Shown here one piece after another: positions 2 to 31,425 of a stretch of DNA of 46,191 nucleotides; positions within the stretch are counted from its first letter, which is position 1, and each line of letters begins with the position of its first letter. The position numbers and the translations under genes were made by a program. Location of the stretch: NCBI GenBank assembly GCA_002898355.1, contig BEHD01000004.1:70540-116730 (forward strand). Reading direction: 5' to 3'. The notes under the pieces are model-generated. The model searched no databases. It was not told the DNA's origin and saw only the letters and a program-made list of their open reading frames with translations. Source of the stretch: an archaeon HR01. GTDB lineage: Archaea; Thermoproteota; Nitrososphaeria_A; Caldarchaeales; Caldarchaeaceae.

Positions 2-1300
2 ATACTCATGGGCAAGGCGTGGGAGATAATACAGGCCGCAGGTGAGAGGATATATGTTGTGCCCCTGGAGAGCCTAGAGGGCGCCGTCCCCTCCTGGGTG
101 GGTGATGAGATACCTGTCCCCCTCGAGGTTGCCCAGGAGGTTGGAAGGATAAGGGGTGGGGCGGCTGAAGCATTCAGGGATGGGAGGCTAGAGGAATGGC
201 TGAAAGAGTTTACGGAGACCTACATGTGTGGAGAAGGGCTCGCCCTCGAATCCCTGAGGGAGGTCTCGGAGCATCTGCGGATGGGCCTTCCAGTTCCCAG
301 CGACAGGGTTGTGATGGTGGAGGAGACTCCGGAGTACGTGGTGGTCCATCTATGCGGTGGGCTGCGGGCCAACAGAACTATCTCAAGGGTTTTGGGGTCT
401 GAGCTTTCGAGGAGGGTTGGGGCACCCATAAGCGTGGTGCAGGACGCCTACAGGATAGTTCTGAGGTCGAGAAACATAGACGGCGAGATGGTGGAAAACC
501 TTCTGAGGGAGCTGGGCCAGACCCATGACTGGGAGAACCTCGTCAAAACAGCCGTTGAATCGTCGAACCTGTTCAGGAGGAGGCTGGTCCACACAGCCAG
601 AAAGATGGGTGTGATAAGCAGGGAGGCCAGCATCCTCGACATCAGCCTGGAGAAACTGGCCGAATCCCTCAAAGGCTCGGTTGTCTATGAGGAGGGGCTG
701 AACCACAGCCTCCAGACAGATTTTGCGGTGGAGACTGCAGGCCAGCTCCTGAAAGCTATAGCATCTGGGGCCACAGCGGTGGTGAGGGTGAGCGTTGACG
801 AGCCTACACCCCTCGCAAGGCTTACCATCGGAAGGCACGAGTCCGAGATAGATGTCATCGCAACGGACAGGCTTCAGAGGCTGGTGGCCAACGCCGTGAG
901 GGGGAGGCTCAACAGCGAAGCCGTAACCCTAGTCTGCTCCTCATGCTTCCAGTGGTATTCACGTCAGGCTGTCAGAGATGTATCCCAGAACCCCGCCTGC
1001 GGAAACTGCGGCTCCAACAGGCTGGGCGTACTCCACGAAGAACCGGAAGCCATACTACACCTCCTCTCCACCAGGGGAAGGCCGGCCAACAGAAGAGAGA
1101 AGAGCATCAAACGCCAGATTCTAAAAACGGCTAGACTGGTCGAGAGATATGGGAAGCCTGCGGTCTTCACCCTTGCCAGCCACTATCTCGACCCCGAGAC
1201 GGCTGAGGAGATACTCTCTAGGGAGAGCTCCCTAGGCATGCGCCTGATCGAGCTCATCATCGAGGAGGAGAAGAAGTCCCTCCAGAGGATGTTTCGGTAG
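2..1300 (+). CDS. lhr: Lhr-type superfamily 2 helicase, C-terminal part (5' truncated)
   Basis: The reading frame is open back to the first base, so the ATG at 8 is probably internal and the helicase core lies upstream of the window. What remains resembles the large C-terminal region of archaeal Lhr helicases, which unwind nucleic acid in repair or RNA metabolism. Visible features are a segment with IPVPLEVAQEVGRIR near residues 35-50, the block GGLRANRTISRVLG near 115-130, and a zinc ribbon with two CxxC pairs (CSSC and CGNC) near 310-335. The C-terminus is a charged helix. The last 44 bases overlap the convergent winged-helix gene at 1257-1868. The family call is fairly firm; which Lhr subgroup it belongs to cannot be said from this fragment. 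Confidence 0.75.
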   Translation: MLMGKAWEIIQAAGERIYVVPLESLEGAVPSWVGDEIPVPLEVAQEVGRIRGGAAEAFRDGRLEEWLKEFTETYMCGEGLALESLREVSEHLRMGLPVPSDRVVMVEETPEYVVVHLCGGLRANRTISRVLGSELSRRVGAPISVVQDAYRIVLRSRNIDGEMVENLLRELGQTHDWENLVKTAVESSNLFRRRLVHTARKMGVISREASILDISLEKLAESLKGSVVYEEGLNHSLQTDFAVETAGQLLKAIASGATAVVRVSVDEPTPLARLTIGRHESEIDVIATDRLQRLVANAVRGRLNSEAVTLVCSSCFQWYSRQAVRDVSQNPACGNCGSNRLGVLHEEPEAILHLLSTRGRPANRREKSIKRQILKTARLVERYGKPAVFTLASHYLDPETAEEILSRESSLGMRLIELIIEEEKKSLQRMFR

Positions 1301-1868
1301 GGCTTCTCTGCCCCGACTCGGCTGCCGCCCGCATCAGCTCCCTCTGGTCCACCTCGGCTAACGCCCTCCACCCCACATGGAGTATCCCGTCCTCATCCCT
1401 GAAAAGGTATCCCCTCCTGATAAACCTCTCCAGATAGGATTCTATCTTCCACTTGGGCATCTTGGTCTCCAGCACCTCCAAGACATCTTTGACGGGTGCC
1501 TTTCCGCCCCGGGAGAAGAGGAGGGAGAGGGAGGCCGAGAGGACGGCCAGCTCGTCTATACGCCATCCCGCAGCGACAATCTCGGAAAGTGTTAAGGGCT
1601 CGGCCAGAGTTATGAAGTATCTCGCCCGGTCATAGTCTTCAGGGCCTGAGCCTTCCGACCCGCCCTCGAAGAGGATTTTAACCCTGAGACCTAGCGGCTC
1701 CAGCCGGTGATTTAATGTCTCGATGACCTTGGGATAGTTTTTCCCCAGCCTCCTCCTCAACTCATACCCTCTCACGCCTGGGAGACGGTGGCTGCTGAAG
1801 AGGAGCATGGCGATAGCTGTTGACATCCGCCTCTTGGACCTGGTCTGCTCAGGTGTTGTCTCTCCCAT
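1257..1868 (-). CDS. MAGE/Nse3-like KITE winged-helix protein
   Basis: A 203-residue protein that I read as a tandem winged-helix KITE subunit of an SMC complex, closer to Nse3/MAGE than to ScpB. Residues 15-65 (MSTAIAMLLF, YELRRRLGKNYPKV, LNHRLEPLGLRV) match the first MAGE winged helix. Residues 108-133 (AVLSASLSLLFSRGGKAP, then VLEVL) match the MAGE pattern of a hydrophobic helix, a G-x-AP turn and the WEVL helix. Residues 145-173 (YLERFIRRGYL, GWRALAEVD) match the end of the second winged helix. The tail 184-203 is disordered and rich in Ser, Gly and Pro. Its start overlaps the kleisin-like gene by 20 nt, so the two are probably translationally coupled. M15 at 1826 is an alternative start. 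Family knowledge: Nse3 binds Nse4, DNA and the RING protein Nse1. Confidence 0.6.
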   Translation of the reverse strand: MGETTPEQTRSKRRMSTAIAMLLFSSHRLPGVRGYELRRRLGKNYPKVIETLNHRLEPLGLRVKILFEGGSEGSGPEDYDRARYFITLAEPLTLSEIVAAGWRIDELAVLSASLSLLFSRGGKAPVKDVLEVLETKMPKWKIESYLERFIRRGYLFRDEDGILHVGWRALAEVDQRELMRAAAESGQRSPTETSSGGTSSPPR

Positions 1869-2631
1869 CCCTCTTCACCGTGACCGTGATAGGTAGCGAG
1901 GTCACAGTTTTCCTATCCAGTTTCTCTCTGAAGGGCTGGAGGTATATCTCGCCTGTTAAAGGGTTTCTCAAAATTTCCGCCAACCCTTCGCTCACGATGA
2001 ACGAGACTAGGTAGGCCCTGTAAGGCCTATTCATCTCACCCTCTCTCGATATGAAATTGAAGTAGTCCAAGCGTCCTCCGTCGCCGGCCAGCTCCAGCAT
2101 CTCACCATGTATATTCCTGACCTCATCCTCCAAGGGTTTATCCTGTGAGAAGATGGGGAGAAGGTCCTGGATGGAGCCTGAGATATCGGATGCGGAGCTG
2201 GTGCCCTCCCTCGGCCCGGCCCTGGTGGGCAGGCCTAGAAAATATTCAAGCCCGTCCCTCACCATGCCGGCCGTCAGCTGCTCGCTGAATACTATGGGCC
2301 TCCAGCTGGATGCAAGCCATGAGGCGATATCCCGGAGGTCGGCTGAGAGAATCCTTACGGCGACTAGCTGGGAGTCGACGAAGAGTGAGGCCGCCCTGTC
2401 CCTGAGCCATTTATGCTGTAGGGCTATGACGATAGCTATCTTGTAGAGGGTTTCGGCGTCTACGAGGATTGTGTCGAAGGTTTTCTGGCTGTCAAGTATG
2501 TGTCTCAGCCTGTTGAGTAGGGATTTCACGTCTACGGTGAAGGGGTCCACACCCGACTTCTCTATACTCTCACATAGCTGGATTATTTTGAGCAGCTCCT
2601 CCCGCGCCATAGCCCGTGAACGGCTAGCCAT
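1849..2631 (-). CDS. Kleisin-like SMC partner, Nse4-like
   Basis: Start chosen at the ATG at 2631, which overlaps the end of the SMC-like gene by 8 nt and has a purine-rich GGAGGG stretch upstream; a longer frame reaches 2685. The 260-residue product has an N-terminal helical region (residues 10-105) with FDTILVDAETLYKIA and FVDSQLVAVRILSADL, a disordered middle (136-155) and a C-terminal winged-helix-like segment at 203-235 (RAYLVSFIVSEGLAEI, then EIYLQPF). That last segment resembles the Nse4 C-terminal domain, which begins with a similar VSF-V-DG-A pattern and closes SMC heads. Its position between an SMC ATPase and a KITE protein is the standard kleisin context. Sequence similarity of kleisins is weak, so context carries much of the call. 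An ScpA-type kleisin is the alternative. Confidence 0.55.
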   Translation of the reverse strand: MASRSRAMAREELLKIIQLCESIEKSGVDPFTVDVKSLLNRLRHILDSQKTFDTILVDAETLYKIAIVIALQHKWLRDRAASLFVDSQLVAVRILSADLRDIASWLASSWRPIVFSEQLTAGMVRDGLEYFLGLPTRAGPREGTSSASDISGSIQDLLPIFSQDKPLEDEVRNIHGEMLELAGDGGRLDYFNFISREGEMNRPYRAYLVSFIVSEGLAEILRNPLTGEIYLQPFREKLDRKTVTSLPITVTVKRDGRDNT

Positions 2632-4363
2632 CCGCCGACACCCTCCCCTCCACAGGCATGGCCACCAAAGACCTACCCTGAACACTCTGAACCACTATAA
2701 CGTTCATATCCTCGGTGAAGGTAACCCTCCCGGGGGTTATCATGATATACTGGATGCTGGGGTCCTGCCGGGCAGTGCTGGTGAGGATGTTTATGATTCT
2801 CTCCCTGTTGAGCGGGTCAAGATGAACGTCGAACTCGTCTATGGCCCTGAACGGTGATTTCACATATTTCTGCAACGCCAGGAGGAAGGCGAGCGTAGCA
2901 ACTATCCTCTCCCCCCCACTCTGGGTGTGCTCATTCAAAAGCGCTGGCTCAACACCTCTGAACCCCACAAATATCTCTATACTGGCCTTGGAGATGTCGT
3001 CGAGATTTCTCAACTCTATCCTACCAACACCGCCCACCAGCGATAGGATCTGCGAGTAGACCGGCTCCACCTCATTAATCAGAGACCTTATGAATGTCTT
3101 CCACGTCTCCTTCCTATACTCCACCTCCTCGAGGGCTTTCCTGACGTTGTCGCTTAGCTGCTGCGCCCTCAGCTCAGCCTCCCTATACTTGGACTCGGCT
3201 ATCAGGAACATGTCCTCGCTATCCTCCGAGACCTGCCCCAGCCCCGCTATCTGAAGGGCTGTCTGCTTTATCTCCTCAGCCAGCTCCTGAGGCTTCCTAG
3301 ATGTCTCCACCTCAGCACCCTTGCTCAGAGCCTCCTCGAGACGTTTGGAGAGCTCCTTCTCCAGCTGGCTCAGCTCCTGTCTAAGCTCGCCCACCCTAGA
3401 CTGGTAGGCCCTCATCCTCTCCTTATACATGCCCAGCAGGCCTGCATGGCTCACCAAGTTCTCAAGGGATGACCTCAGCCACGCCTCATCACTTTCACGG
3501 TAGCGGCCAAGTATCTCACCCAATATCCTGTCCACGTTTCTTCCCTCATCACCCACCCGGCCCTCCAGCTCCACCATCTTCTCCTCCAGCTCCCCGATCT
3601 TCTCCTCAACCCTGCTGACAGACCTCCTCGCCTCATTCACGAGGGACCAAGCATACTCCTTTTCAAGCTCGCCCCTCCTCCTCACCAGGTCCCTATATAT
3701 CGTCAGCTTCTGGTATTCCGAGCGCCAGAACTCGACAGCTGACCTCGCCTCCTCAAGGGTCTTCCTCAACACAGCCTCCTCAGCTGAGAGGGATGAGAGC
3801 TTTGTCTCTGCCTCCAGTATCTTCTCCCTCAGCCCCCGGGCCCCCACCGCCTCCTCGATCATGGAAAGCTTTTCACGGCTATCCCTCCCCACAAACTGCT
3901 CTATCATGTTCTGGTGCATAACTATCAGGAGGTTGTCAGGGTTGATGCCCATCCTGGCCAGGAAATGCTCCACCTCGGCCTTGGGCTTGAACCTGTTGTT
4001 GATGTAGTGCCAGTAGTCCCCGCTCTTCTTCATAAACCTCGTGATGGTGATGTTGTCGGAGTTGACCGATGGGATCGGCCTGACGCCGTTAACCGGCCTG
4101 TTGTCGAAGGTTACCGAGACGCGGGCTGCATCCGCCCCACGTCTAATGAGGTCGCTGAGCCTCTGACCCCTCTCGGTATATGACTGGCCGAGGGCCACGG
4201 AGATGGCTAGAAGTATCGATGATTTACCTGAGCCGTTGGGGCCTACAATTATGTTGAGGCCTCTGGAGAAGGATATCCGGCTATATTCATGGGACATGAA
4301 ATTCTCCAGCACCACCTCTCGGATATACGTCTTCGACTGCGGGGTCAGCCCAGGCTCTATCAC
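2624..4363 (-). CDS. Short SMC/Rad50-family ATPase, Smc5-like head
   Basis: A 579-residue ABC-type ATPase with split head. Walker A is GPNGSGKSS at residues 41-49, the Q-loop glutamine is in MHQN near 151, the signature motif SGGER is at 482-486 and Walker B is FRAIDEFD at 505-512 (D509, E510). The motif QYIMITP at 538-544 with the preceding CPFR-like SPFR block is very close to the C-terminal head of eukaryotic Smc5. Coiled coil fills roughly 165-300 and 315-425, far less than a canonical SMC (about 1150-1200 residues), and I see neither a hinge domain nor a CxxC zinc hook. The GTG start at 4363 lies 35 nt from a TATA-like stretch at 4394-4402. It heads a three-gene unit with kleisin-like and Nse3-like genes. 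Alternatives are other archaeal SMC-like proteins such as Sulfolobus coalescin or halobacterial Sph proteins. Confidence 0.7.
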   Translation of the reverse strand: MIEPGLTPQSKTYIREVVLENFMSHEYSRISFSRGLNIIVGPNGSGKSSILLAISVALGQSYTERGQRLSDLIRRGADAARVSVTFDNRPVNGVRPIPSVNSDNITITRFMKKSGDYWHYINNRFKPKAEVEHFLARMGINPDNLLIVMHQNMIEQFVGRDSREKLSMIEEAVGARGLREKILEAETKLSSLSAEEAVLRKTLEEARSAVEFWRSEYQKLTIYRDLVRRRGELEKEYAWSLVNEARRSVSRVEEKIGELEEKMVELEGRVGDEGRNVDRILGEILGRYRESDEAWLRSSLENLVSHAGLLGMYKERMRAYQSRVGELRQELSQLEKELSKRLEEALSKGAEVETSRKPQELAEEIKQTALQIAGLGQVSEDSEDMFLIAESKYREAELRAQQLSDNVRKALEEVEYRKETWKTFIRSLINEVEPVYSQILSLVGGVGRIELRNLDDISKASIEIFVGFRGVEPALLNEHTQSGGERIVATLAFLLALQKYVKSPFRAIDEFDVHLDPLNRERIINILTSTARQDPSIQYIMITPGRVTFTEDMNVIVVQSVQGRSLVAMPVEGRVSADG

Positions 4364-21297: not shown

Positions 21298-22005
21298 TTA
21301 CCCGACTCTTCTCTGGCAGTTGGGGCAGGACCTATTCAAATCAACCCACGTATCTAAGCATCCGGAATGGTATATAACACCGCATGAAGAGCATTTAACC
21401 GCACTCTCCACATCCATTTCAAGATAGCATATTGGACATTTCAAACCCTCGTCCACAGAATCCACCGGAACGAACGAGGTTTCTTCAGATACAGCACCCT
21501 CACCCTCAGGGGATGGGAGGGGAGTATAACCGTATGGGTACTGTCTTTCTATCTTGACCCTCGTCGCCGCCGCCACCCCGCTAACACCTAGGATGGCCAC
21601 GGCTGTGAAGATGGATGCGAAAAACCCCAGCTCCAGCCGGCCGCTGACGCTGAGCCTAGGGATTGTAATGGAGACCATGAAGATGGGTGAGGTGAGGGCT
21701 ACGAGTCCTCCTATGATACCCATAACCATCAAAACAGCCCTAACAGTTCTGATATTTTTGCTGGCCGATGAGGCTGCCAGGGCTACTCCAGCGATTACAC
21801 CGCCAGCGACCGAGAGCAGCAGCGTCTCAGTGTTTATGTAGCCTGATATCCTGCTTATGGCTACAGTATCCGTGATAGTCTCATACCAGGGCAGTAGGAG
21901 GCTCAACATATGCAGGCTGGCCACAAGTGATAGGAATGACCCTATCTTGAAGAAGCGGGCCAGCACCTTCTCCTCAGTAATATCCACAGTCATCCCAGCC
22001 AACAC
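21298..22005 (-). CDS. Membrane-anchored RING-finger protein
   Basis: A 235-residue protein with four hydrophobic helices (about 22-41, 62-80, 89-112 and 127-147), a Pro/Ser/Glu-rich linker and a C-terminal RING with ligands C190, C193, C205, C208, H213, C216, C227 and C230. W220 after the sixth ligand and CPNC at the end resemble E2-binding RINGs. The ligand spacing is identical to that of the small RING protein at 23299-23553, and both share the LEM residues after the second cysteine. I infer a membrane ubiquitin-ligase candidate working with the E2 at 24705. The GTG start at 22005 is the longest; an ATG at 21993 lies 27 nt from a TATA-like box and may be the true start. It precedes glyS without a gap. 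Confidence 0.72.
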   Translation of the reverse strand: MLAGMTVDITEEKVLARFFKIGSFLSLVASLHMLSLLLPWYETITDTVAISRISGYINTETLLLSVAGGVIAGVALAASSASKNIRTVRAVLMVMGIIGGLVALTSPIFMVSITIPRLSVSGRLELGFFASIFTAVAILGVSGVAAATRVKIERQYPYGYTPLPSPEGEGAVSEETSFVPVDSVDEGLKCPICYLEMDVESAVKCSSCGVIYHSGCLDTWVDLNRSCPNCQRRVG

Positions 22006-23298: not shown

Positions 23299-23553
23299 TC
23301 AGACCGCCTCCGCAGCTATGACCCTCCTACATAGTGGGCATGTCTTCTTAATCATGAGCCATCCGTCGAAACAGGTTGAATGGCCAACGCAGCCGCAGTG
23401 TGGGCAGGTGTATCTGCCACCACCCACCATCTCCAACCCGCATATAACGCAGGTCTCCAGCTTCTCCTCTTTCGGCCTCTCCTCTTTCGGCTTCTCCTCC
23501 TTCCTGAAGGGGTCCCAAAACCCTACAACCTCTGTCCTAACTACGATCCTCAA
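23299..23553 (-). CDS. Small RING-finger protein, putative ubiquitin E3 ligase
   Basis: An 84-residue protein. A short N-terminal strand and a charged repeat-like linker (KEEKPKEERPKEEK, residues 18-31) lead to a RING with C35, C38, C50, C53, H58, C61, C72 and C75, a C4HC3 order. W65 lies where RINGs contact E2. This is the small RING finger protein of the Caldiarchaeum ubiquitin cluster, for which E1-E2-RING reconstitution has been reported. The start is a TTG at 23553 overlapping the E1 gene by 17 nt; no ATG or GTG is available before the linker except internal ones. The coiled-coil gene follows after one base. Confidence 0.88.
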   Translation of the reverse strand: MRIVVRTEVVGFWDPFRKEEKPKEERPKEEKLETCVICGLEMVGGGRYTCPHCGCVGHSTCFDGWLMIKKTCPLCRRVIAAEAV

Positions 23554-24760
23554 CTATCTTCACCCTAATCTCCAGCGGGTTGAATCTTCTGGAGGTGTGC
23601 AGGTATATGATGTCTCCATCAGATAGGGGAACTTCATGCACCCTGAGATTGTCATTTAATAGTCTTGCCTCTTTCTGAATCTCTATATCAGGGTACATAA
23701 ACTTTGCGGCCAGCCTCTTCTTCAAATCCAGCACAGACTCTCCGGGGCTGACCTCTAAAACCAACCCTTCATCTATGGATTCCCCGCAGACGAAGCAGTT
23801 CTCGTTTCTCCTTAGGTAGACCCTTGAAACCCTTCCCGAGAGACTGTCGTAGACGGTGAGGCCGGGCCTGGGATGGCCCAGCGTCCCTCCATGGAGTATT
23901 CTCACGACCTCGAAGGCTGCCATGCCTGAAATAGCCGCTGATATGCACTGTAGGGCGGGCATCTTAGGTGTCAGGGCCTCCCTGAACTCGAGGACGAGAC
24001 CACGTATGTCGTGGGGTAGGGTTTCAAGCCTGAAGAGGGGTGTGTATTTTATGTCGAAGACCGTCTTAATGCCTGCCTGCATAAGAATCTCGGCCGTCTG
24101 GATGTCTATTTTGAGGCCCTTCTCAGATAGCTCAGCCACTAGGTCTTCAGGCCTTTTCCTCCTGAGGGTGCATTCGGCCGCCTGGACCTCTCGAGGTATC
24201 AACGCCTCGGCATGGCATTCAATACACGATGTCTGCATAGGTATGACGACCTGTATGTTGGCGTAGAAACCATCCATCGAGACATCCACCAGGGGTTTCT
24301 TCAGCTCTACGGCCAACGAGTTAATCCATCGCCGTGTTGGCCAGTTATCAACACAGGATACCAGGATGTCAACATCCTCGAGGATTCGGGCCGACATCTT
24401 CCTAACATCCCCCTGGAACGCCTTCACCGCCACGTCGGGGTTCATCCTCTCAAGTTTTTCCTTGGCCGCTATGCTTTTGGGCCTCCCGATATCCTCGTCG
24501 GTGAAGAGCATCTGCCTACTCAGGTTGGAGAGTTCAACGGCGTCGCTGTCCACGAGGATTATCTCGCCCACACCCATCAAGGCTAAATTTTTTGAGACCT
24601 CACAGCCTAAAGCTCCAACACCGACAACACCTATGCTGGCATCTTGAAGCCTGGCCTGACTCCATCCCTCAAGCCTTAGCTGTCTCTCATATCTCTCCAA
24701 GCTTCTAGTAGAGCGGATATCTCCTTCTAGCATGTCTAAAGGCCTGCTCGGGGGTGGCAT
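23537..24760 (-). CDS. Ubiquitin-activating E1-like enzyme
   Basis: A 407-residue E1. The adenylation domain shows GVGALG at 47-52, the acidic D71/D73 loop and NLSR at 79-82. Zinc cysteines are C179/C182 and C322/C325. C197 in ECTLRRKRP corresponds to the catalytic cysteine in the crossover region of eukaryotic E1s (CTxR-x-P). Residues 333-407 form a ubiquitin-fold-like domain (SPGESVLDLKKRL, PLSDGDIIYL) for E2 recruitment. The UFD and catalytic cysteine separate it from bacterial MoeB/ThiF. Overlaps E2 by 56 nt from M1 or 29 nt if M10 (24733) is the start. Activates the ubiquitin-like protein with ATP and passes it to the E2. Confidence 0.92.
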   Translation of the reverse strand: MPPPSRPLDMLEGDIRSTRSLERYERQLRLEGWSQARLQDASIGVVGVGALGCEVSKNLALMGVGEIILVDSDAVELSNLSRQMLFTDEDIGRPKSIAAKEKLERMNPDVAVKAFQGDVRKMSARILEDVDILVSCVDNWPTRRWINSLAVELKKPLVDVSMDGFYANIQVVIPMQTSCIECHAEALIPREVQAAECTLRRKRPEDLVAELSEKGLKIDIQTAEILMQAGIKTVFDIKYTPLFRLETLPHDIRGLVLEFREALTPKMPALQCISAAISGMAAFEVVRILHGGTLGHPRPGLTVYDSLSGRVSRVYLRRNENCFVCGESIDEGLVLEVSPGESVLDLKKRLAAKFMYPDIEIQKEARLLNDNLRVHEVPLSDGDIIYLHTSRRFNPLEIRVKIVEDRS

Positions 24761-25499: not shown

Positions 25500-26237
25500 G
25501 TGGTAAAACATCGAATAACATCCCGTGAAGACCTCGAGAAGCTTATAGCATTTTTTCAGCCCGGGCCACATCTAACTCTTAATAGAAGCCTCCACATGTT
25601 TATCCCGATGCGTGTTAGGATATATCCGCTGGCCCTCGGCAAAATAATAAAGCATAGCGCCTCAAGCCCCAACAGGGAAGTGGCGGGCCTACTAGTAGGT
25701 AAAAGCCATTACAGTATCTTGGAGGTTTGGGACGCTGTCACAGGAGAGCAGCATGGGACGCCGGCCTTCGTCCACCTAGATGAGGCCGTGATGGCCAGCG
25801 TCGCCGAGCAGCTCTCCCAGTCGGACGCCGGCCTCTACATCGTTGGCTGGTATCACTCGCATCCCGGGCTTGATGTATTTCTATCACCCACAGATGTAGA
25901 CACCCAACGCAGGTATCAGCTACTATATCCGAAGGCTGTCGCACTAGTCATCGACCCAATAGAGTATGTGAGAACTAGGAAGATAGCGAGTCTCAAGTTT
26001 AAGGTCTTCCACTTATCCAAGGATGGGAAAGTAGTCACACTTCCTGTATCAATAGGGATAAACAAGTCCAAGCTTTTGGAAAGCACTGTTCACGGGCTAA
26101 ACACCTACGACCAATCAAAAACCAACAACATCCAACAGACTAACAACGAGCACTCCATCAGAGTTGGACTCTTTGAGAGGGCTAAGAAGCTTTTAAGACC
26201 TCAGAGGGAAGAGACAACGGCAGGTGATATCCGGTAA
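25500..26237 (+). CDS. Rpn11-like JAMM deubiquitinase
   Basis: A 245-residue metalloprotease. E60 in REVAGLLVG, then H119, H121 and D132 in YHSHPGLDVFLSPTD, form the JAMM zinc site; the surrounding VGWYHSHPG and YPKAVALVIDP are Rpn11-like. It matures the ubiquitin-like protein and probably removes it from substrates. The C-terminal 50 residues are polar and unrelated to Rpn11. The GTG at 25500 is the longest start; the ATG at 25596 (M33) just before the JAMM domain is plausible because the promoter predicts a transcript start downstream of 25500. The following coiled-coil gene begins one base after the stop. Confidence 0.9.
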   Translation: MVKHRITSREDLEKLIAFFQPGPHLTLNRSLHMFIPMRVRIYPLALGKIIKHSASSPNREVAGLLVGKSHYSILEVWDAVTGEQHGTPAFVHLDEAVMASVAEQLSQSDAGLYIVGWYHSHPGLDVFLSPTDVDTQRRYQLLYPKAVALVIDPIEYVRTRKIASLKFKVFHLSKDGKVVTLPVSIGINKSKLLESTVHGLNTYDQSKTNNIQQTNNEHSIRVGLFERAKKLLRPQREETTAGDIR

Positions 26238-30315: not shown

Positions 30316-31425
30316 ATGTCACAGGAGCTGGAGAGGATAGCGGCGGGAAGGGCTAAAGAGGCTGTCTACTACGACAGGATAGGCCAGAAAAGCAAGGCCG
30401 TCAAGGTATACCGTGAAGTGATAGAGATTCTATGGCGGATTTACAGCCTGACCACAGACCCAACCCTGAAGAAGGTCTACCAGGATAAAATCAGGGAGTA
30501 CCAGGAGAGGATAGACTTCCTCACATCGGACTCCGACACAATAGCTTCAACCCCGAAGACAACTATGAATGATGCGGTCCTAACTCAGAAGCCTCAGGTG
30601 AAGTGGGATGACATAGTAAACCTTGAAGATGCAAAAAAAGCGATTAGGGAGAGCATAGTCTACCCCACCAAGAGGCCCGACCTATTCCCACTCGGCTGGC
30701 CTAGGGGGATACTTCTATTCGGGCCGCCGGGTTGCGGCAAAACACTTCTAGCAGCCGCTGCCGCAAGCGAGATCGACGCCTCATTCCACATCTTGGACGC
30801 CGCAACTATAATGTCCAAGTGGCTGGGCGAGTCGGAGAGAAATGTCTCGAGGATATTCAATCAGTGCAGGCAGGCTGCGAGGTCCGGTAAGCCAGCCATC
30901 ATCTTCATCGACGAGGTGGACTCTCTCACGGCTGAAAGGCCTCTTGAGGTGGGAGGTGAAGCACGTGTTCGCAACCAGCTGCTGAAGGAGATGGACAGCA
31001 TACTCGATAAGGGTAGGAAAGACTACATCTACGTAATAGCAGCCACCAACAAGCCCTGGCTCCTAGACGAGCCATTCATAAGACGTTTCCAGAAGAGAAT
31101 CTATGTATCTCTCCCAGACCTGGCCTCACGTAGGAGACTCTTCGAAATGTATACACGGGGACTTAATATGGATAGCTCGGTCGAGCTGAACCAGATGGCC
31201 ATAATCACAGACGGATACTCCGCATCAGATATCCACGATATCTGCATGGAGGTACAGCTTAAAGTGGTGAGCGAGTTTTTCAGCTCAGGCGGCGGAGAAA
31301 ACGGCGCACCCCGGCCCATAACGATGGAGGACTTTTCAGAGGTTATCAAGAGGCGGAAGCCATCCATCTCCCTCGAAAACATGAAGAGACTCCTAGAGTG
31401 GCAGGCTAAACACGCTACTGGCTGA
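30316..31425 (+). CDS. cdvC: CdvC, Vps4-type AAA ATPase
   Basis: A 369-residue ATPase that remodels ESCRT-III filaments in archaeal cell division. Residues 5-70 form an MIT domain of three helices. The AAA module has Walker A GPPGCGKT at 136-143, Walker B IIFIDE at 195-200, sensor asparagine N245 in AATNKP and arginine finger residues R256/R257; pore residues MSKWLGESE at 166-174 match Vps4. A TATA-like box (GTATATAG) near 30282-30289 is about 30 nt before the ATG. The gene is convergent with cdvB, overlapping it by 11 nt, whereas Sulfolobus has cdvA, cdvB and cdvC in one direction. Confidence 0.93.
   Translation: MSQELERIAAGRAKEAVYYDRIGQKSKAVKVYREVIEILWRIYSLTTDPTLKKVYQDKIREYQERIDFLTSDSDTIASTPKTTMNDAVLTQKPQVKWDDIVNLEDAKKAIRESIVYPTKRPDLFPLGWPRGILLFGPPGCGKTLLAAAAASEIDASFHILDAATIMSKWLGESERNVSRIFNQCRQAARSGKPAIIFIDEVDSLTAERPLEVGGEARVRNQLLKEMDSILDKGRKDYIYVIAATNKPWLLDEPFIRRFQKRIYVSLPDLASRRRLFEMYTRGLNMDSSVELNQMAIITDGYSASDIHDICMEVQLKVVSEFFSSGGGENGAPRPITMEDFSEVIKRRKPSISLENMKRLLEWQAKHATG

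Follow-up and report, generated by a model that had tools for sequence, protein, structure and literature searches.

Is the overlapping gene unit near the start of a 46,191-nucleotide stretch of the archaeon HR01 genome (contig BEHD01000004.1, positions 70,540 to 116,730; this whole stretch is referred to as the window) an archaeal form of the eukaryotic Smc5/6 complex? A preliminary description had claimed that it is, citing motifs in the three encoded proteins. Here, each protein is compared with its candidate relatives, and the rival identities are weighed.

An overlapping SMC-kleisin-KITE gene unit

The claim of an overlapping three-gene unit with named motifs held. Three minus-strand open reading frames, encoding an SMC head, a kleisin, and a KITE protein, were found with neighbors overlapping by 8 and 20 bases, and the cited motifs (SPFRAIDEF, QYIMITP, YLVSFIVSEGLAEI, SLSLLFSRGGKAP, and GWRALAEVD) are all present in the translations. 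The features are as follows:

2624-4363, minus strand: SMC ATPase head, 579 aa, GTG start
4220-4243, minus strand: Walker A GPNGSGKS of the head, residues 41-48
3119-3838, minus strand: coiled-coil hairpin linking the two ATPase lobes of the head, about residues 176-415, judged from the length and the low Pro/Gly content of 33 heads
2909-2920, minus strand: ABC signature SGGE of the head, residues 482-485
2831-2848, minus strand: Walker B RAIDEF of the head, residues 506-511
2732-2752, minus strand: QYIMITP motif of the head, residues 538-544
1849-2631, minus strand: Nse4-like kleisin, 260 aa, ATG start
2383-2628, minus strand: kleisin N-terminal helical domain, residues 2-83 (AlphaFold2 helices 2-26, 35-48, and 52-83)
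1933-2133, minus strand: kleisin C-terminal winged helix, Nse4_C-like, residues 167-233 (profile and AlphaFold2)
1257-1868, minus strand: KITE protein, tandem winged helix, MAGE/NSE1-like, 203 aa
1356-1562, minus strand: second winged helix of the KITE, residues 103-171, holding most of GWRALAEVD
21301-22005: RING protein
23540-24760: ThiF/E1-like protein
25500-26234: JAB protease

The coiled-coil limits were set by eye. The longest frame for the kleisin (1849-2685) has an earlier start than the ATG call. The cited motifs exceed chance because the Nse4-like block sits in the alignment of the kleisin profile to Nse4/EID3 and GWRALAEVD falls inside the KITE stretch matched by the Nse1 and MAGE models. 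A further claim, that the genome has ubiquitin-type conjugation, was borne out by the last three genes listed.

The head resembles Smc5/6 and has no detectable hinge

The window head belongs to the SMC_N family (Pfam, 5e-39) and matches SMC_prok_A (NCBIfam) at 194.5 bits (2e-57). As a single sequence, its best PDB match is Smc5 (phmmer, 7.5e-39); the head family profile finds Smc6 (5e-63) and Smc5 (4e-62) ahead of prokaryotic Smc (2e-51). The Walker B region aligns to PFRVVDE of Smc5 and PFRCLDEFDV of SMC6, and the ITP of QYIMITP is common to the head, Smc5, and Smc6 but missing at that place in the canonical Smc sequences compared.

In the phylogeny, heads group with Smc5 and Smc6 (UFBoot 93, FastTree 0.975); FastTree support for the head clade itself is 0.2. 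The tree sampled 18 of the 33 heads, chosen for spread; eukaryotes were represented by three sequences, of which two share a species, and Smc1-4 by none. In AU tests, a split joining heads with Rad50 was rejected (0.019), whereas heads with canonical Smc was not (p 0.197). Profile and tree both place the head in the Smc5/6 clade, with the latter p value as a caveat.

No SMC_hinge was present among the 23 families matching the window head, and a CxxC zinc hook was found in 0 of 33 aligned heads. Because these heads are only 555-680 aa long and their single coil aligns to both Smc6 arms (family profile versus PDB), we infer, from sequence alone, that neither a hinge nor long arms could be accommodated and that the arms span about 120 residues. 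The preliminary description must be corrected in this respect. One short head gene is present in the window's own genome; extra head-type matches elsewhere are 1167- and 1207-aa frames (G007 and G038) and a gene in two pieces (G040).

The kleisin and KITE families match Nse4 and MAGE/Nse1

The kleisin family profile matched Nse4 (5.4e-5) and EID3 (6.2e-5) in the PDB; ScpA appeared in the same search only weakly and over the N-terminal part (E 0.12). Foldseek with the kleisin AlphaFold2 model also returned Nse4 (9.3e-5). Pfam Nse4_C matches 17 of 33 family members but not the window's own kleisin as a single sequence; assignment as an Nse4-type kleisin is shown by the family, not by the window sequence alone. 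When the eukaryotic Nse4_C model was run against 44 genomes of the class at E<=1, it matched in 27, and in 26 of these the match was the present kleisin by position. Nothing was found in the other 17 genomes at this threshold. The kleisin of the window's own genome was missed, and the model also matched in 2 of 14 control genomes. By inference, with no binding data, the N-terminal helical domain would be expected on the SMC neck and the C-terminal winged helix on the SMC head.

For the KITE, the window protein alone gave weak Pfam matches (Nse1, E 0.03; MAGE, E 0.16). Within the family of 32, MAGE matches 13 members and SMC_Nse1 11, and the family profile matched MAGE (0.01) and NSE1 (0.019) in the PDB. 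The AlphaFold2 model (pLDDT 89) matched the Nse1-Nse3-Nse4 complex in Foldseek (6e-7), and it also matched a JetABC chain (8dk1_F, 1.5e-4) and MukE (2.3e-3). The MAGE model found a match in 30 of the 44 genomes, all of them the present KITE (28 by position and 2 by profile). Its one match in the window's own genome is likewise the present KITE, the only KITE gene in the unit. No RING was found for the KITE, a result covering all families of the window KITE and 25 of the 27 families listed for its relatives. A search of a viral fold library with the KITE returned cullins and phage proteins.

A separate Smc-ScpA-ScpB operon serves as a control

The window's own genome has a separate operon for a full-length Smc (1126 aa) and distinct ScpA and ScpB. 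Families built from the ScpA and ScpB sequences of the same lineages were run as a control and matched ScpA/Rad21 and ScpB, with no Nse4 or MAGE match; these families had four sequences each, so their profiles are thinner than those of the present kleisin and KITE. In profile-profile comparison, the present kleisin aligned with ScpA over 175 columns at a probability of 80%, and the KITE-ScpB link was weak (probability 1.5%, E 0.033). The two systems are alike in their three-part plan, and kleisin homology covers both ends, but the canonical one combines a full-length, hinge-bearing Smc with ScpA and ScpB, and the present unit fits neither part of that description. The preliminary description had named two outcomes that would refute it. 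Partners identified as ScpA/ScpB did not occur in profile searches, and neither did a head inside the Rad50 or coalescin clade, although grouping with canonical Smc is still not rejected.

The unit is widespread and usually contiguous

Among 398 genomes of the phylum, a count that leaves out Asgard genomes, the head was found in 157, the kleisin in 156, and both in 153, with 7 carrying one alone. Nearly all genomes of the class have the unit (42 of 44), and it also occurs in loci titled Hadesarchaea, Geothermarchaeota, Methanodesulfokora, Methanomethylicota, and Thermoproteota; it is therefore no rarity of one lineage.

The kleisin adjoins the head in 52 of 54 named loci and the KITE in 49. 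Three of the exceptions fall at contig ends (L020, L042, and L052), and two are true separations (L034 and L035). In genome G011, with a head at nearly the contig position of L034, the KITE lies on another contig; a KITE is present in G010 too. Of the 141 genomes with positions listed for both genes, 4 have head and kleisin separated within a single contig, and 8 have them on two contigs. A candidate second complex in G020 and G021 was rejected: it consists of the sole kleisin and KITE, with two genes between them, 5-9 kb from the head.

Gene order with an Lhr helicase is common to 29 of 43 loci. The conserved upstream neighbor of the unit (226-251 aa) had no significant match in Pfam (two members), NCBIfam, or PDB. 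A viral origin was also considered and rejected; the viral-contig scan, which stopped at 600 rows with at least 80 loci kept, gave at best 24% identity (E 5e-13).

Discussion

We conclude that the three genes likely encode one SMC-kleisin-KITE complex, an archaeal sister of Smc5/6-Nse4-Nse1/Nse3; complex formation, the clamp mechanism, and a repair role are inferred, and nothing has been measured. The claim of an archaeal Smc5/6-Nse4-Nse3 largely held, with the Smc5/6 head, Nse4 kleisin, and MAGE/Nse1 KITE matches all obtained. Of known systems, the eukaryotic Smc5/6 core (Smc5, Smc6, Nse4, Nse1, and Nse3) is the nearest, sharing the head's Walker B and ITP motif, an Nse4-like kleisin, and a MAGE/Nse1-like KITE. 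It differs in having two different SMCs and two KITEs, a hinge with long arms (their absence here being inferred), and a RING on Nse1. The present unit has one SMC and one KITE and is therefore a homomeric relative rather than Smc5/6 itself; we regard it as a homomeric sister complex without a hinge.

The most serious alternative is a reduced paralogue of Smc-ScpA-ScpB, duplicated within archaea, whose head lost its arms and hinge and whose likeness to Smc5/6 is shared drift; the unit would then serve chromosome compaction. This is favored by the AU result for canonical Smc and by the kleisin-ScpA link, including the N-terminal ScpA match. We nevertheless consider it unlikely: the three subunits each independently favor Smc5/6 parts over Smc, ScpA, and ScpB, the KITE-ScpB link is weak, the control families are canonical, and heads join Smc5/6 at UFBoot 93.

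There is little to recommend a Rad50-like or coalescin-like end-tethering ATPase, with the neighboring genes as regulators, that would replace a Mre11-Rad50 patchy in the class. Coalescins and other ASRPs (ClsN and Sph) are short archaeal SMC-type ATPases like the present head, the Rad50_Sulf model matches the head N-lobe (2e-19), and at E<=1e-25 that model finds Rad50 in just 20 of 44 genomes. However, a zinc hook is present in the vast majority of ASRPs (PMC9389158) and in none of the 33 heads, the ASRP model (NCBIfam) stops at 64.5 bits, below its cut-off of 300, whereas SMC_prok_A reaches 194.5, and the split joining heads with Rad50 was rejected; a Rad50 or coalescin identity of the head was accordingly discarded. 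An antiviral or anti-plasmid system of the Wadjet, MukBEF-like, or Lamassu type is similarly remote. Eukaryotic Smc5/6 acts as a viral restriction factor, and a defense role would fit both this and the short head. In PADLOC-DB, the head matched mad3 (4.8e-33) and LmuB (9e-24), the 611-position Lamassu LmuB model aligning across nearly the whole head (residues 11-543), and the KITE fold resembles the JetABC and MukE chains. Against this, those scores fall below SMC_N and SMC_prok_A, the kleisin and KITE (one sequence each) matched 0 PADLOC-DB families at E<=1, and no nuclease family is among those listed for either. The unit is also chromosomal with conserved gene order in most loci and nearly universal in the class, unlike a sporadic defense island.

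Returning to the sister-complex reading, two identical heads would dimerize on two ATPs, and the kleisin would bridge them asymmetrically, its helical domain contacting one neck and its C-terminal winged helix the other head. The middle of the kleisin would carry a KITE dimer that touches DNA. With predicted arms of about 120 residues and no hinge, the complex could not form the tall Smc5/6 ring. It would most likely act at the heads as a compact, ATP-gated clamp or bridge for DNA, not as a long-step loop extruder, and may hold recombination or replication-fork structures.

The claim that no description was known held only in part. A link between archaeal SMC heads and SMC5/6 has already been published (PMC9389158, which cites Yoshinaga and Inagaki 2021); their "SMC5/6-related" SMC forms a clade with SMC5 and SMC6 (support 100/0.99; PMC9389158). 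It is archaeal and joined with SMC5 and SMC6, like the present head, but its identity with the present short family is not established. The main text of PMC9389158 does not contain "kleisin," "ScpA," "ScpB," or "Nse," and we found no description of the present kleisin and KITE in the literature searched, which did not cover van Hooff et al. 2024 (bioRxiv). The KITE is also relevant to the view that Smc complexes of archaea have, as a rule, none (PMC7055376); the same paper reports that six archaeal ScpA proteins tested do not bind ScpB.

On a bolder reading, which could as easily prove wrong as right, the unit is a present-day, homomeric equivalent of the complex from which eukaryotic Smc5/6 arose. 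Eukaryotes would have inherited the head, the kleisin, and the KITE jointly from archaea, and doubling would then have given Smc5 and Smc6 from the head and Nse1 and Nse3 from the KITE. The hinge and distal arms would have been lost in the archaeal line, and an Smc5/6-type engine could work as a minimal ATP-gated clamp with no hinge. The origin of eukaryotic Smc5/6 is an open question, and with a complete three-part relative in archaea it becomes possible to test whether a single head preceded two and a single KITE preceded two. The unit raises the question of which functions are possible for an SMC lacking a hinge and long arms, and it offers a small, probably heat-stable complex for structural and single-molecule work. 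The presence of three core Smc5/6 parts side by side suggests that they already worked jointly in archaea.

Three overlapping genes encode an SMC-type unit

Three minus-strand genes encode, in order, a short SMC ATPase (the head), an Nse4-like protein (the kleisin), and a tandem winged-helix MAGE/Nse1-like protein (the KITE), with overlaps of 8 bases and then 20 bases.

2624–4363, minus strand: head, 579 aa
1849–2631, minus strand: kleisin, 260 aa
1257–1868, minus strand: KITE, 203 aa

The motifs cited in the preliminary description, which proposed an archaeal relative of Smc5/6-Nse4-Nse3, were all found in the three proteins. The assembly is 1.76 Mb with 93% completeness, and its head is closest, among named relatives, to those of Candidatus Caldarchaeum and Pelearchaeum (62–64% identity).

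The head is most similar to Smc5/6

The head has Walker A, signature, and Walker B motifs. Against PDB chains, the single sequence matched Smc5 best (7.5e-39), then Smc6, then prokaryotic Smc; a 33-member profile matched Smc6 (5.4e-63), Smc5 (4.2e-62), prokaryotic Smc (2.3e-51), Smc2 (8e-45), and Rad50 (8e-16). SPFR-x-x-DEFDV is common to the head and human SMC6, and QY-x-x-ITP to the head and Smc5, whereas a canonical Smc of a related archaeon has FYIFDEVDAHMD and QIIIVSL at those positions. Archaeal "SMC5/6-related" SMC proteins form a clade with SMC5 and SMC6 with support of 100/0.99 (PMC9389158, citing Yoshinaga and Inagaki 2021 for these proteins).

The phylogeny proposed in the preliminary description was run without Smc1–4, using both lobes of 35 sequences (18 of the 33 heads, 3 eukaryotic Smc5/6, 8 canonical Smc, and 6 Rad50). 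Heads grouped with Smc5/6 (UFBoot 93, FastTree 0.975); the heads-only clade was supported by UFBoot (98) but merely 0.2 by FastTree, and canonical Smc received 99. In an AU test of unrooted splits, grouping of heads with Rad50 was rejected (0.019) but grouping with canonical Smc was not (0.197); placement with Smc5/6 is therefore favored but unproven. The head also matched the PADLOC-DB defense models mad3 (4.8e-33) and LmuB (9e-24), the latter a 611-position model of a short defense ATPase that aligned across nearly the whole head, almost at full length. No PADLOC-DB model matched the kleisin or KITE. Separately, the Rad50_Sulf profile (E ≤ 1e-25) matched only 20 of the class's 44 genomes, compared with 42 for the short head, which was itself the best Rad50_Sulf match in the window's own genome.

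The kleisin and KITE resemble Nse4 and MAGE/Nse1

The kleisin is helical in its N-terminal part and has a winged helix at the C-terminal end. Its family profile matched Nse4 (5.4e-5) and EID3 (6.2e-5) in the PDB, both over the winged helix, followed by ScpA (0.12) over the N-terminal part. The Nse4_C match expected in the preliminary description held for the family (17 of 33 members, best 1.7e-4) but failed for the window's own kleisin, in which none was found. Across the 44 whole genomes, the eukaryotic Nse4_C model gave a match at E ≤ 1 in 27, with the kleisin found in 26 and the Pfam cut-off exceeded in 2; 2 of 14 control genomes matched, neither above cut-off. Match positions, compared with kleisin places by eye, showed that the top 16 were all kleisins and that 6 of the 32 listed were not, including the sole match in the window's own genome. 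A fold search with the AF2 model (pLDDT 82, pTM 0.42) returned Nse4 first (9.3e-5, 2.4e-4) and cohesin kleisin next (2e-3). Global TM-scores were low (0.25), as expected of an extended protein.

The KITE family profile matched MAGE (0.01), NSE1 (0.019), and then MotA (0.3), and individual members matched MAGE (13/32) and SMC_Nse1 (11/32); the window's own KITE matched MAGE at 0.155. The MAGE model had matches at E ≤ 1 in 30 of 44 genomes and in none of 14 controls. All 30 include the KITE: 28 by position (beside the kleisin or within a frame already known to encode a KITE, judged by eye; the window's own is among them) and 2 by profile match (G010 and G011, 1e-69 to 3e-72), the G011 KITE lying away from the head. 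Two extra matches (G008:C7 and G028:C18) were not KITEs. With the AF2 model (pLDDT 89), the fold search gave the Nse1-Nse3-Nse4 complex (6.0e-7) and NSE1 (6.7e-7), with MAGEs, a JetABC chain, and MukE after these. The anticipated MAGE match thus held by family profile, Pfam, and fold.

The same genome has a second, canonical operon, with Smc (1126 aa), ScpA (4.7e-6, above cut-off), and ScpB (4.6e-37); a six-frame SMC_ScpA search overlooked this ScpA. Control families, each of four sequences taken from four genomes and thinner than those of the kleisin and KITE, matched ScpA and Rad21 for ScpA, and ScpB for ScpB, with neither Nse4 nor MAGE among their matches. In profile-profile comparisons, the Nse4-like kleisin was related to ScpA across 175 columns (probability 80%), and the KITE was hardly related to ScpB (probability 1.5%, E 0.033). 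The preference for Smc5/6 parts therefore belongs to the three-gene unit and is not general to archaeal kleisins.

The head has short arms and no hinge counterpart

The 33 aligned heads are 555–680 aa long. Profile positions 8–446 align to Smc6 76–524 and positions 179–561 to Smc6 720–1088; one head coil corresponds to both Smc6 arms, with no counterpart of the hinge. Proline and glycine are scarce at positions 180–440, and CxxC occurs in none of the 33. SMC_hinge was not among the 23 families matched by the window's head, nor among the 25 listed of the 155 matched across the 33 heads. Whole-genome SMC_hinge matches numbered 15, of which 14 were in 1138–1207-aa frames and 1 in a 780-aa frame on a different contig from the head. 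Silence of this model alone proves little because it also overlooks the hinge of the own-genome canonical Smc.

The three genes are widely linked

One scan of genome contigs gave 54 named loci with a head, whose record titles include Caldarchaeum and relatives, Hadesarchaea, Geothermarchaeota, Methanodesulfokora, Methanomethylicota, and others. The kleisin adjoins at 52 and the KITE at 49, with intergene spacings of −95 to +72 and −92 to +93 bases when each frame is taken to begin at its first start codon. Missing neighbors reflect contig ends in L020, L042, and L052; L034 and L035 have no KITE at the site. By eye, a short frame and then a family-B DNA polymerase-like gene follow the kleisin in L034 (3693–5876).

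Of the 44 class genomes, 42 encode the head. Across a 398-genome sample of the phylum, head matches (E ≤ 1e-40) occur in 157, kleisin matches (E ≤ 1e-6) in 156, and both in 153 (Fisher p 2.5e-101, kinship not corrected for). Four have the head alone (G042, G074, G117, G203) and three the kleisin alone (G002, G099, G326); completeness is 97% in G074 and ≤84% in the other six. Placement was compared in 141 genomes with both positions, from 150 listed places per gene. The kleisin starts ≤700 bases downstream of the head on the same strand in 117 and 893–1197 bases from it in 12, where the listed head match is an N-terminal piece only; the two genes share a contig but are separated in 4 (G020, G021, G049, G078) and lie on different contigs in 8. 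In G020 and G021, two genes separate kleisin from KITE, and the head is 5–9 kb off; by eye, the intervening genes (L098:8065–9691) have archaellin- or pilin-like N-termini. The head match in G098 and G158, both of genus g50, contains one internal TAG, which could reflect recoding or match overrun.

Genomic neighborhood

The C-terminal part of an Lhr-type helicase (8–1300, plus strand; PF08494 match at 8–1297) is convergent with the KITE gene. Of the 43 named loci with >1 kb beyond the KITE, 29 carry a helicase of this type there, on the opposite strand, and 14 do not; the titles of the 29 cover several different archaeal phyla. The helicase may be a functional partner of the unit, and the face-to-face arrangement is a hint of a repair role, nothing more.

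A conserved protein of unknown function (226–251 aa; L036:5237–5992 and 12 other loci, L098:17516–18202, G000:C12:3641–4321) was also observed. At 12 of the 13 loci it lies ≤1.6 kb upstream of the head gene in divergent orientation, and L098 has it on the same strand as the head; it occurs in 42 of 44 class genomes, including the window's own, there on a different contig. Nothing significant was found for it in Pfam (two members), NCBIfam, or PDB.

The claim of a ubiquitin-type system in this genome held, with three genes within the window:

21301–22005: RING protein
23540–24760: ThiF/E1-like protein
25500–26234: JAB protease

A Vps4-type AAA ATPase with a MIT domain is encoded at 30316–31422.

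A probable sister complex of Smc5/6

Three homology criteria are met, one for each protein, but the SMC heterodimer, hinge, KITE pair, and RING of eukaryotic Smc5/6 are not; we therefore classify the unit as a likely sister complex of Smc5/6. The literature listings searched showed no description of Nse4-like kleisins or MAGE-like KITEs from archaea, and no paper in the literature searched combined "Asgard" and "Nse4"; archaeal kleisin and KITE proteins of Smc5/6 type thus appear undescribed, a novelty that we claim with reserve.

In kleisin-SMC complexes, the kleisin forms an asymmetric bridge between neck and head, as stated for ScpA (PMC7055376), and its middle is occupied by KITEs. The unit is inferred to be a 2:1:2 complex that would clamp DNA at the heads with ATP bound. 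A tall ring, or loop extrusion in long steps, would be unlikely because the hinge is absent and the arms are only ~120 residues. Inferred from sequence, without functional data, the best-fitting role would be clamping or bridging forks and recombination structures.
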